Positions 25,677-28,517 of a stretch of 47,144 bases of DNA are shown here, piece by piece (position 1 is the first letter of the stretch; every line of letters begins with the position of its first letter). The stretch is from an uncultured Bacteroidota bacterium (lineage in GTDB: Bacteria; Bacteroidota; Bacteroidia; Flavobacteriales; Flavobacteriaceae), in assembly GCA_902631125.1 (NCBI GenBank), contig CACOXF010000006.1, positions 1 to 47,144 on the forward strand, in the 5' to 3' direction. The notes under the pieces were generated by a model that was given only the letters and a program-made list of their open reading frames with translations, did not search any database and was not told the origin of the DNA. A program made the position numbers and the translations under genes.

Positions 25677-27566
25677 ATGAGTGATTCGATTAAACACGAA
25701 TGCGGGATAGCGCTTGTTCGGCAACTGAAACCACTTCGCTATTATCAGGAAAAATACGGCAGCTTATTTTTTGGGATTTATAAAATGTATTTGATGCTTG
25801 AAAAACAGCACAACCGTGGCCAAGACGGAGCTGGTTTTGCGAGCATAAAATTTGACATGAATCCTGGCGACAGCTTTATTAGTCGTGTTCGATCTTCAGA
25901 AAACCAGCCCATTCAAGATATTTTTTCGAAGATCAACAGAAGCATAAACACTGTTTTTCAAGAGCTGGGAAATACAGATTTAACTGACCTTGAAATCAAA
26001 CAAGCATACCCATATTTAGGTGAAATTATGATGGGTCATTTGCGCTACGGCACCTTTGGAAACAACAGCATAACGAGTGTACATCCCTTTTTGCGTCAAA
26101 ACAATTGGATGCATCGAAATTTGGTGTTGGCTGGAAACTTTAACCTGACCAATGTAAACGAGCTTTTTGACAATTTGGTCACACTCGGACAGCACCCAAA
26201 AGTGAAGGCAGACACCGTGACAGTCATGGAAAAAATAGGACACTTTCTTGACACTGAAGTGACTAAAGAGTATAAAAAATTAAAAAAGAAAGGCTTTTCT
26301 AAACAAGAATCATCACCAATAATCGCAGAAAACATAAAGGTTTCGAAAATCCTTAAAAAGGCAACCAAAAATTTTGATGGTGGTTATGTCATTAGTGGCA
26401 TGCTGGGGCATGGAGATGCATTTTTGATGCGTGACCCCAACGGCATACGACCAGCATATTTTTTTCAAAATGACGAATTTGTTGTTGCTGCATCAGAACG
26501 ACCAGCGATTCAAACAGTATTTAATGTTCCCTTTGAAGAAATCCAAGAGGTTCTTCCAGGCCATTCTTTAATTATTAAAAAGAATGGAAGAACTTCAATG
26601 AAAGAAATTTTGCCGGCCAGGGAGCTCAAAGCATGTTCGTTTGAAAGAATTTATTTTTCGAGAGGAAATGACGCAGAAATTTACAACGAAAGAAAAGCCT
26701 TAGGAAAACACCTTTTCCCAAAAGTACAGCAAGCCATCGACAATGATTTTGAAAACACCGTTTTTTCTTTCATTCCCAACACAGCTGAAACGGCATTTTA
26801 TGGACTAATAGAATCTGTGCAATCTTTTCTGAAACAACAAGCAATAGCGACATTAAAGACAAGCCCAGCTGAGGCAGACCTTGAAAAGCTATTAAATTGT
26901 ACACCAAGAACAGAAAAGGTAATACTTAAAGATGTAAAGCTTCGAACGTTTATTACTGAAGACAGCAGCCGAGATGATCTTGTTGCCCACGTTTATGATA
27001 TTACCTATAAGACTGTAAAAAACAGCGACAACCTTATTGTTATTGACGACAGTATTGTTCGAGGCACAACACTGAAGAAAAGCATTCTAAAAATTCTCGA
27101 CAGGCTGTCTCCGAAGAAGATTGTGGTGGTGTCGAGCGCACCACAAATCCGCTACCCCGACTGTTATGGAATTGATATGGCACGCTTAGAAGACCTCATC
27201 GCTTTTCAGGCAATGCTCGGGTTGTTAAAAGACCTTAATAAAGAACCAATGCTTGAAACAGTTTATCAGGCAGCAAAAGAAGAAATGAAAAAACCAGACA
27301 CAGAAGCCAAAAATGTTGTCAATGTGCTCTATGAGCTGTTTTCAACAGAGCAGATTTCTGCAAAAATAGCTGCGCTAGTAAAGGAGGAGAGCATTCAATG
27401 TGGGGTTGACGTCATTTTTCAGGATGTTGACAAATTACACCTCGCATGTCCTAAAAATTTAGGGGACTGGTATTTTACTGGGGATTACCCAACCCCTGGA
27501 GGAAACCGAGTTGCCAATCAAGCTTTTATTAATTTTATGGAAGGAAATAAGGAACGCGCCTATTAA
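25677..27566 (+). CDS. Amidophosphoribosyltransferase, long PurF-like form
   Basis: A 629-residue protein of the PurF type, which makes phosphoribosylamine from PRPP and glutamine. The N-terminal glutaminase starts after a short leader, with the nucleophile C9 in KHECGIALVR; RGQDGAGFAS and GHLRYGTFGNN are the glutaminase motifs. The PRPP-binding loop is VIDDSIVRGTT near residues 455-465. It is over 100 residues longer than usual PurF (about 500). Long forms of this kind are known in Bacteroidetes and may coexist with a standard PurF elsewhere. Its place beside purN supports a purine role. Confidence 0.85.
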   Translation: MSDSIKHECGIALVRQLKPLRYYQEKYGSLFFGIYKMYLMLEKQHNRGQDGAGFASIKFDMNPGDSFISRVRSSENQPIQDIFSKINRSINTVFQELGNTDLTDLEIKQAYPYLGEIMMGHLRYGTFGNNSITSVHPFLRQNNWMHRNLVLAGNFNLTNVNELFDNLVTLGQHPKVKADTVTVMEKIGHFLDTEVTKEYKKLKKKGFSKQESSPIIAENIKVSKILKKATKNFDGGYVISGMLGHGDAFLMRDPNGIRPAYFFQNDEFVVAASERPAIQTVFNVPFEEIQEVLPGHSLIIKKNGRTSMKEILPARELKACSFERIYFSRGNDAEIYNERKALGKHLFPKVQQAIDNDFENTVFSFIPNTAETAFYGLIESVQSFLKQQAIATLKTSPAEADLEKLLNCTPRTEKVILKDVKLRTFITEDSSRDDLVAHVYDITYKTVKNSDNLIVIDDSIVRGTTLKKSILKILDRLSPKKIVVVSSAPQIRYPDCYGIDMARLEDLIAFQAMLGLLKDLNKEPMLETVYQAAKEEMKKPDTEAKNVVNVLYELFSTEQISAKIAALVKEESIQCGVDVIFQDVDKLHLACPKNLGDWYFTGDYPTPGGNRVANQAFINFMEGNKERAY

Positions 27567-27621
27567 AAAACAAATTTTTTACAAACTAGCTTTAGATTAA
27601 AAAAAAAGTGTACATTAGCAA

Positions 27622-27700
27622 AGCCATAACATAAGTAGGTTAAGTTCATGGTAAGATTTGGGGCGAAAAAGGAGGAGTCTTTCCTCCTTTTTTATTTTAT
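27622..27700 (+). ncRNA. Putative small RNA, copy 1
   Basis: Predicted RNA of about 80 nt. TACATTAG at 27611-27618 is a near match to the TAnnTTTG box, placing the start at about 27622. The RNA would open with a hairpin: CCATAAC (27624-27630) pairs with GTTCATGG (27644-27651) with one bulged C. A linear purine-rich linker (TAAGATTTGGGG) follows, then the terminator stem. There is no plausible open reading frame. Family unknown; known Bacteroidetes RNA motifs should be compared. Ends are inferred. Confidence 0.55.
27666..27698 (+). terminator. Intrinsic terminator of small RNA copy 1
   Basis: AAAAAGGAGGA pairs with TCCTCCTTTTT (11 bp) around the loop GTCTT, followed by a T-rich run. It is a strong rho-independent terminator and also could stop transcription of the PurF-like gene. 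Confidence 0.85.
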
Positions 27701-27719
27701 AAAAAAACTCAAAAAACTT

Positions 27720-27747
27720 TTTGTTTCCAAAAAAAAACGTACATTAG
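27720..27747 (+). promoter_or_regulatory. Candidate promoter of small RNA copy 2
   Basis: TTTG at 27720-27723, a 16-bp spacer and TACATTAG at 27740-27747. The -7 box is a TAnnTTNG variant that also precedes copy 1 (27611-27618) and the SnoaL-like gene (37490-37497), which supports its being real. Confidence 0.45.
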
Positions 27748-27750
27748 CAA

Positions 27751-27829
27751 AGCCATAACATAAGTAGGTTAAGTTCATGGTAAGATTTGGGGCAAAAAAG
27801 GAGGAGTCTTTCCTCCTTTTTTATTTCAT
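27751..27829 (+). ncRNA. Putative small RNA, copy 2
   Basis: Same predicted RNA as copy 1 (5' hairpin, linker, terminator), with ends inferred from the promoter-like box and the terminator. The G to A change extends the A side of the terminator stem by one pair. If expressed, the two RNAs would be almost indistinguishable. Confidence 0.55.
27794..27826 (+). terminator. Intrinsic terminator of small RNA copy 2
   Basis: AAAAAAGGAGGA pairs with TCCTCCTTTTTT around GTCTT, followed by ATTT. Equivalent to the copy 1 terminator, one base pair longer. Confidence 0.85.
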
Positions 27830-27854
27830 AAAAAAAGGAGCAAGTTGCTCCTTG
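27829..27854 (-). terminator. Intrinsic terminator of sodA
   Basis: On the minus strand AAGGAGC and GCTCCTT form a stem with a 5-base loop (27835-27853), followed by a T run (the A tract at 27830-27836). It lies 26 bp after the sodA stop. Confidence 0.75.
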
Positions 27855-27879
27855 ATTTATTTACACATGTAAGCGTTAT

Positions 27880-28485
27880 TTACACGTTAGTCTTAAAATT
27901 TTCAGCGACTATTTCCCAGTTGATTACACTAAAAAAGGCTTCTATATAATCAGGCCTTCGGTTTTGATAGTTTAGATAATATGCGTGTTCCCAAACATCA
28001 AGACCAAGTATTGGGGTTCCATCGCAACCAACACCAGGCATAAGAGGATTGTCTTGATTCGGCGTCGAACAAACCTCTAAATCACCTCCTTTTTTTGCAC
28101 ACAACCAAGCCCAACCTGACCCAAATTGTGTTGCCGCAGCAGCACTAAAAGCTACTTTAAACTGGTCAAAAGAACCAAATGAACGATTAATCGCTTGGGC
28201 CAAAGCACCAGAAAGGGTGTTGGCGGCAGGACTCATCACCCGCCAAAACAAACAATGATTGTAAAAACCACCCCCATTGTTTCGAACAGCAGCATTGCTC
28301 ATGTCTAAATTGGAGAGTATCTCTTCAATAGAATGTTGTGTAAGAGGGGTGTTTTCAATAGCAGCGTTAAGTTTGGCAGTATAGCCAGCGTGATGTTTGG
28401 TATGGTGAATTTCCATAGTACGCGCATCTATATGAGGCTCTAGGGAGCTATAAGAATAATGAAGTTTTGGTAATTCGAAAGACAT
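27880..28485 (-). CDS. sodA: Superoxide dismutase (Fe/Mn family, Mn-like)
   Basis: A 201-residue enzyme that dismutates superoxide in the cytosol. Metal ligands are visible: the first histidine in [12 protein letters not shown], the second in [11 protein letters not shown], and [19 protein letters not shown] with aspartate and histidine. GSGWAWL is the conserved core. NQDNPLM carries the glutamine typical of Mn-type enzymes, so manganese or cambialistic use is favoured. I chose the ATG at 28485; nine more upstream codons are open but lie over the promoter region. It is divergent from the helicase gene. Confidence 0.93.
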
Positions 28486-28509: not shown

Positions 28510-28517
28510 CAAATTTA
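28510..28517 (-). promoter_or_regulatory. Promoter -7 box for sodA
   Basis: On the minus strand TAAATTTG matches TAnnTTTG and lies 24 bp upstream of the sodA ATG. It overlaps the in-frame upstream codons, which supports the start at 28485. Confidence 0.5.

Follow-up and report, generated by a model that had tools for sequence, protein, structure and literature searches.

The window is a stretch of 47,144 nucleotides from an uncultured member of the Flavobacteriaceae (contig CACOXF010000006.1). Between a purF-like gene and a convergent sodA it carries two near-identical units in tandem, each with the predicted outline of a small RNA (sRNA) gene. The features are as follows.

25677-27566, + strand, purF-like gene, the constant upstream neighbour (locus comparison, protein profile search)
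27600-27707, + strand, tandem unit copy 1: promoter region, sRNA gene, terminator and tail (direct-repeat search, letters)
27611-27618, + strand, -7-like box TACATTAG of copy 1 (letters against the consensus)
27623-27693, + strand, predicted sRNA of copy 1, ~71 nt (start placed from the -7 box, and fold)
27623-27652, + strand, 5' hairpin of copy 1 (predicted folds)
27634-27644, + strand, proposed seed of copy 1, the apical hairpin part AGTAGGTTAAG (from the gldK-leader and leader-word analyses)
27652-27664, + strand, conserved linker TAAGATTTGGGGC of copy 1 (predicted to be unpaired apart from its first base, which closes the hairpin)
27666-27693, + strand, intrinsic terminator of copy 1 (predicted fold, compensatory changes across units)
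27720-27723, + strand, TTTG at the expected place of the -33 box of copy 2 (letters)
27729-27836, + strand, tandem unit copy 2, a direct repeat of copy 1, 96% identical
27740-27747, + strand, -7-like box TACATTAG of copy 2 (letters)
27752-27822, + strand, predicted sRNA of copy 2, ~71 nt (start placed from the -7 box, and fold)
27752-27781, + strand, 5' hairpin of copy 2 (predicted folds)
27763-27773, + strand, proposed seed of copy 2 (from the gldK-leader and leader-word analyses)
27781-27793, + strand, conserved linker TAAGATTTGGGGC of copy 2 (alignment, fold, letters)
27795-27822, + strand, intrinsic terminator of copy 2 (predicted fold, compensatory changes across units)
27828-27860, no strand assigned, GGAGCAA/TTGCTCC inverted repeat (GGAGCAAGTTGCTCC hairpin) between copy 2 and sodA (repeat search)
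27880-28485, - strand, sodA, the constant convergent neighbour (beginning with the ATG at 28485; at 28512 in the automatic ORF list)

The repeat search gives a unit length of 108 nt, an identity of 96% and a spacing of 129 nt. Four differences separate the copies across the 108 nt, two of them within the inner 98 nt (27610-27707 against 27739-27836), at 27665 (G/A) and 27698 (T/C). Letter comparison thus agrees with a preliminary description of this DNA, which had reported two 98-bp units with two differences, both outside the 5' hairpin. The -7 box recognised by the primary sigma factor of Bacteroidota has the consensus TAnnTTTG (PMC9723704, PMC7366714), and the -7-like box that the description assigned to each unit is found as TACATTAG in both. 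From these boxes, transcription is predicted to start at ~27623 and ~27752, against 27622 and 27751 as first proposed. Letters and folds also uphold its division of each unit into box, 5' hairpin, linker and terminator, and profile searches of both proteins confirm that the array lies between a PurF-like gene and sodA. The sodA product is an Fe/Mn superoxide dismutase; the PurF-like protein matches TIGR01134 at 128.4 bits, below the cut-off of 350, with a weak glutamine-amidotransferase domain. The inverted repeat at 27828-27860 has A/T flanks on both sides of its hairpin and is probably the sodA terminator or a bidirectional one. The genome of the window is 65% complete, and BLASTN found no third copy in it.

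Both RNAs are predicted to fold into the 5' hairpin and the terminator, at -22.1 and -21.7 kcal/mol for copies 1 and 2. Compared with dinucleotide shuffles, the whole-RNA folds have z-scores of -3.3 and -3.1; the 5' part without the terminator shows no exceptional stability (z -0.7 and -0.8). A terminator stem of at least 11 bp is fully paired, with G-U allowed, in 352 of 355 distinct units; this anchored count looked for fully paired stems, so that full pairing is partly by construction and three units failed. At stem positions 3 to 6 all four Watson-Crick pairs occur among the units. The anchored count was used for the terminator in place of RNAalifold, which misaligned it in the whole-unit alignment and reported two-sided change in 0 of 13 pairs. 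In the same alignment the 5' hairpin pairs are kept via one-sided changes and no two-sided change was found. As only one-sided changes keep its pairs, covariation neither proves nor contradicts the 5' hairpin.

The unit is widespread among relatives. A BLASTN search with one unit, a check proposed in the preliminary description, matches 120 of 149 Flavobacteriaceae genomes (one per genus, the window's included) and 9 of 13 genomes of the window's genus (again including its own), all 13 of which are 58-86% complete. The unit is therefore more than a chance repeat, as had been argued, and its conservation across the family refutes a recent duplication found only here. A covariance model was built from 48 units using the RNAalifold structure, and its searches rest mainly on sequence. 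In genome samples of the order (119) and of the class (149) it finds 11 and 3 genomes, respectively, every one in Flavobacteriaceae, under strict filters with which weak relatives may be missed. So far the sRNA family appears to be confined to Flavobacteriaceae. In named genomes an exact pattern identifies at least 118 stretches, and the titles of the 80 examined include Flavobacterium, Maribacter, Zobellia, Aquimarina, Winogradskyella and Formosa, together with unclassified Flavobacteriaceae, Flavobacteriia, Bacteroidetes or Bacteroidota.

Across these genomes a core of ~40 nt is nearly invariant in the unit alignment, with most core positions unchanged between genera, paired and unpaired alike, and the -7 box sits at a fixed distance from the hairpin. 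There may also be a similarity to a 16S rRNA word. A short peptide read from the core ATG (frame MVRFGAKK...) was considered and rejected, as the frame is broken by single-base differences in length from genus to genus (GGTAAGAT or GGTAGAT, and the length of the A-run). With a promoter, a short non-coding predicted transcript and a terminator, conserved as a whole, the unit appears to match the pattern of an intrinsically terminated sRNA gene. As far as sequence tells, the earlier reading of a duplicated transcription module forming tandem sRNA genes is correct, and the units very probably represent a genuine sRNA family.

The position of the family is also conserved. In the 80 named stretches listed, both neighbours (purF upstream on the same strand, sodA convergent downstream) are present in 57, one of the two in 19 and neither in 4, giving a purF-like gene upstream and/or a convergent sodA downstream in 76; the stretches are at most 8 kb and some end right at the unit. 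At approximately 41 further loci set against the proteins of the window, the neighbours are the same in every case where one was matched. Solitary copies between other genes are found at L213, L222, L264 and L274, with the core kept. Counted as a lower bound in the 80 listed stretches, one copy is present in 45, two in 17, three in 8, four in 8, five in 1 and six in 1. The units fall into three types by linker, and 43 of 54 arrays with at least three units begin with type 1 and finish with type 3; the arrays are distinct by sequence and one species may appear twice. This fixed position and the order of paralogue types go beyond the preliminary description, as do the upstream repeat and the gldK complementarity described below.

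The family is not in Rfam 15. The covariance search that had been proposed finds no family at gathering score for the units, and a permissive scan up to E 10 returns 56 matches, of which the lowest E-value (0.006) belongs to a Brucella sRNA on the opposite strand and corresponds to the terminator hairpin. Flavo-1, the model of which we take to be included in the Rfam library, matches neither at gathering nor among these 56, in line with the suggestion that the RNA could be new once Flavo-1 had been excluded.

The nearest known kind is FopS (RF04319) and GibS, paralogous multicopy sRNAs of Bacteroides that are described with a conserved 5' part and a terminator and that pair with translation initiation regions in Bacteroidota (PMC11697453, PMC7366714). 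The units are alike in outline, with a conserved 5' part, a terminator and multicopy paralogues (one to six in tandem per stretch), but are not counted as a member. The words TTCATGGTA, AGATTT and AGGTTAA are common to the core and these RNAs (shuffle p 0.001-0.01, single comparison), a likeness that came from a scan of 4227 families in which FopS was not the top row, and the shared words stand in another order in the core. Against the FopS model the units score 16.0, 15.6 and 16.5 bits, compared with a gathering score of 56, and the model has 0 matches in the window's genome, while the control Bacteroides ihuae was found. FopS has a single-stranded 5' seed, whereas the 5' end here lies in a predicted hairpin, and FopS and GibS copies are scattered rather than in tandem at one locus. 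FopS also targets susC translation starts, and SusC targeting is not supported here: 30 SusC leaders from 5 genomes outside the window's genus, taken on both strands, give z -1.6 with 7 of 150 shuffles as low, and lack UUAACCU. Separately, FopS-like sRNA genes (TTCATGGTATTAGATTTAAGG plus a terminator) were seen at L079 and L107, in two genomes of one other family in the class.

Within the Flavobacteriaceae, the Rfp RNAs of Flavobacterium psychrophilum (e.g. Rfp18, Rfp11, Rfp13, Rfp15) are sRNAs of which some are conserved beyond the species (PMC9723704). One of them, Rfp18, affects metalloprotease mRNA levels and is said to have three or more stem-loops (PMC9723704). The RNA list of that paper, compared by description only, may already include the RNA studied here (PMC9723704). 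F. psychrophilum is not among the 80 loci listed. LhrC, Qrr and OmrA/B each consist of several near-identical sRNA genes with a common seed, as seems to be the case here; they are from other phyla and are likened by description. They are cited as sibling sRNA arrays (PMC11697453). Searches of open-licence PubMed Central papers for paralogous sRNAs of flavobacteria, for sRNAs close to sodA and for sRNAs of gldK gave no paper recognisable as a description of this family.

Upstream of the units lies a further conserved element. The direct repeat GCATTTcATC-N10-GCgTTtATC exceeds 10 bits in 251 of 288 promoters of type 1/2 units, at 74-76 nt before the hairpin in 247 of the 251. Its matrix holds ~17 bits, against 4.4 after shuffling of the upstream letters, in the first 107 promoters. 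LytTR sites have repeats of 9-11 nt and spacers of 11-13 nt, and YpdB, a LytTR regulator of Escherichia coli, binds a GGCATTTCAT repeat (PMC4847170). The element here is likewise a direct repeat of a GGCATTTCAT-like half-site, with both copies on the same strand. It differs in its start-to-start distance of 20 bp; the half-sites are 10 nt with a spacer of 10 nt (or 9 and 11), the spacer of 10 being just below the LytTR range. By analogy, the chances that the activator of the sRNA is a LytTR-type response regulator in most genera are about even. In 0.4 Mb of genome G032 the repeat has 5 hits above 14 bits, compared with 2 for the reversed matrix, and no regulon is claimed.

This promoter is not uniform across the family. 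The direct repeat was not detected in the window's genus, where all 12 promoters shown score below zero. There (L032-L049; 27590-27750 in the window) a TTGG/TTTG -33-like element seems to replace it, and the copies share a nearly identical terminator. In three of the four relocated copies the repeat is weak, at 6.8-10.6 bits compared with 20.3. The type 3 promoter differs from that of types 1/2 in that a hyperconserved TTTCTTTgTTATTTCtCACAATACCAGTAATTTAG takes the place of the direct repeat (19 sequences), and it is also conserved between the -33 and -7 boxes. Examples are the last array units in L007-L019, L023, L025, L027 and L050. This conservation suggests that another regulator may act on type 3 units.

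A general affinity of the core for translation starts is not seen. Duplex energies computed at 340 gene starts from 0.4 Mb of G032 average -13.58 for the core and -13.65 (sd 0.40) for shuffles. Searching 120 genomes for CAAATCTTACCATGAAC with up to 2 mismatches gave 186 matches (100 + 86), and the reversed control gave 95 (49 + 46); sRNA genes account for many of the 186, and no clear excess is left among the matches listed. A general anti-start-codon seed is therefore not supported.

Target prediction with the linker had been proposed in the preliminary description, and the linker-complement pattern led to gldK. The pattern CCCCAAATCTTA-N(3-18)-ATG occurs at 23 places in 21 of 149 genomes, compared with 5 control matches; two of the 23 overlap, several appear to fall in coding sequence, and there are two groups of three similar places. 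The gene was found via L145, one of several leads (the others being L128, L135, L138 and L139), and the gldK leader of that lead's own genome (L332) is without UUAACCU. In G032 the encoded protein scores 599.6 bits against TIGR03525 (T9SS ring complex lipoprotein PorK/GldK). All 30 chosen sRNA-holding genomes have a gldK match, 26 of them outside the window's genus, each from another genus, and 4 from within it.

Leaders from -80 to +5 were paired with the core and compared with shuffled cores. For the gldK leaders of the 26 genera, which share ancestry, the duplex mean is -19.3 against -14.6 kcal/mol for shuffled cores, with 0 of 200 shuffles as low. The resulting z is -4.5. Five control gene sets range from -1.6 to 0.5, namely pfkB-like (46 leaders, 0.23), purF (51, -1.12), sodA (58, -1.10), uvrD-like (19, 0.46) and SusC (30, -1.6), and five other segments of the same gldK loci range from -0.62 to 1.40. 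Pairing of the core with the purF, sodA, pfkB-like and uvrD-like leaders is accordingly not supported. No more than 25 nt from the start codon, 16 of the 26 gldK leaders carry UUAACCU, which faces the sRNA loop AGGUUAA; none of the 204 control leaders does. UUAACCU differs from the word by which gldK was found. It is absent from the other 10 of the 26 and from all 4 gldK leaders of the window's genus. Several gldK leaders add a CUUAAAUCU-like word opposite the linker, in the right order. On this evidence gldK may be a direct target of the sRNA in most genera, a proposal that falls just short of an even chance.

The family, its fixed place, the terminator covariation, the promoter repeat and the conserved gldK complementarity are shown by computation, and they can be joined into an inferred mechanism comprising transcription, activation, pairing in the cell and repression. 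The two units would be paralogous genes for a trans-acting sRNA of ~71 nt, each served by a promoter and a terminator of its own. Outside the window's genus, in most of the genera sampled, a LytTR-type activator would bind the direct repeat some 45-75 bp before the start. Having tandem copies may raise the dose, and different promoters could divide regulation between them. The apical part of the 5' hairpin (AGUAGGUUAAG) would meet UUAACCU-type elements beside the start codons of target mRNAs, with a second contact through the linker AGAUUUGGGG, and pairing would block initiation of translation. The best target candidate would be gldK, a ring lipoprotein of type IX secretion and gliding. Base pairing is probably the mode of this sRNA. 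The combined model, a LytTR-activated family of trans-acting sRNAs that pairs with target starts, gldK foremost, is judged equally likely to hold or to fail; a point against it is that the proposed seed would lie partly inside the 5' hairpin.

The strongest rival is that the invariant core may be the site of an RNA-binding protein, which tandem copies would titrate like CsrB-type sponges. A core invariant in paired and unpaired positions alike, the tandem multicopy arrangement, the missing general pairing signal at gene starts and the words shared with FopS RNAs, which RbpB binds (PMC11697453), would all suit such an RNA. Conversely, RRM_1 (RbpB-type) proteins are matched in only 2 of 8 sRNA-holding genomes, a further difference from FopS; of the six without a match, three are incomplete and three are 99-100% complete. 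Each RNA also carries a single motif rather than repeated sites, and the gldK leader would be left unexplained, making this reading unlikely.

It may also be that the sRNA does pair with mRNAs, that its real targets lie elsewhere and that the gldK element is a chance-matching transcription or translation signal. TTAACCT is present in the leaders of 11 of 995 G032 genes, compared with a mean of 3.1 for the 210 arrangements of its letters, and ranks 2; together with TTTAACC it forms the two commonest of these arrangements. Other leaders, an nqrA-like one included, also hold TTAACCT, and 10 of 26 gldK leaders do not. This frequency is compatible with a regulon and equally with some other role of the leader element. 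Among antisense 7-mers TTAACCT is first in G032 and second in G043 (z 2.5 and 2.4), and among all leader words it ranks 406th of 7564 and 290th of 3771, respectively. This low rank of the antisense words slightly lowers the odds of both the combined model and its extension to T9SS control. Against the reading of other targets, the pairing of gldK leaders is far stronger than that found with shuffles or in five other gene sets, and several of these leaders match the linker and the loop in the right order; the reading is considered somewhat less likely still than a protein-binding RNA. The last rival is a cis element or by-product with no function in trans, either an attenuator or a repeated structure at the 3' end, belonging to the purF-like gene or to sodA. 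It draws on the fixed place between the two genes and is highly improbable, as the units have promoter signals of their own with position-specific conservation, pairing with purF or sodA starts was not found, and the core persists in the four copies that lie away from both genes, a point against a cis element that fits a trans-acting product.

The Flavobacteriaceae are major marine polymer degraders and fish pathogens, and their regulatory RNAs are little studied. The family yields a concrete prediction, in which a LytTR regulator would act through the sRNA on gldK. If true, this would add a post-transcriptional layer to type IX secretion and gliding, with control of T9SS assembly common to most of the family; no such layer was found in the open-licence PubMed Central literature. 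That a LytTR-switched sRNA tunes T9SS and gliding family-wide via the gldK leader, with reduced marine lineages including the window's genus rewired, is a tentative reading and more doubtful than the direct targeting of gldK.

A few minor observations concern single loci. At ~137567 in G032, the leader of a gene that we take to be nqrA-like carries GCCCGAAATTTTGTTAACCT, with the word order of the gldK leaders and a duplex of -21.0 kcal/mol. At ~381288 on the minus strand of the same genome, a weaker direct repeat (16.4 bits) lies 169 nt before the gene of a large secreted-looking protein (MENYTYPFIKQ...). Three similar stretches, CCCCAAATCTTACC...TTGCGCATGG, are found at L132, L147 and L149 in two genomes and are possibly a repeated element.
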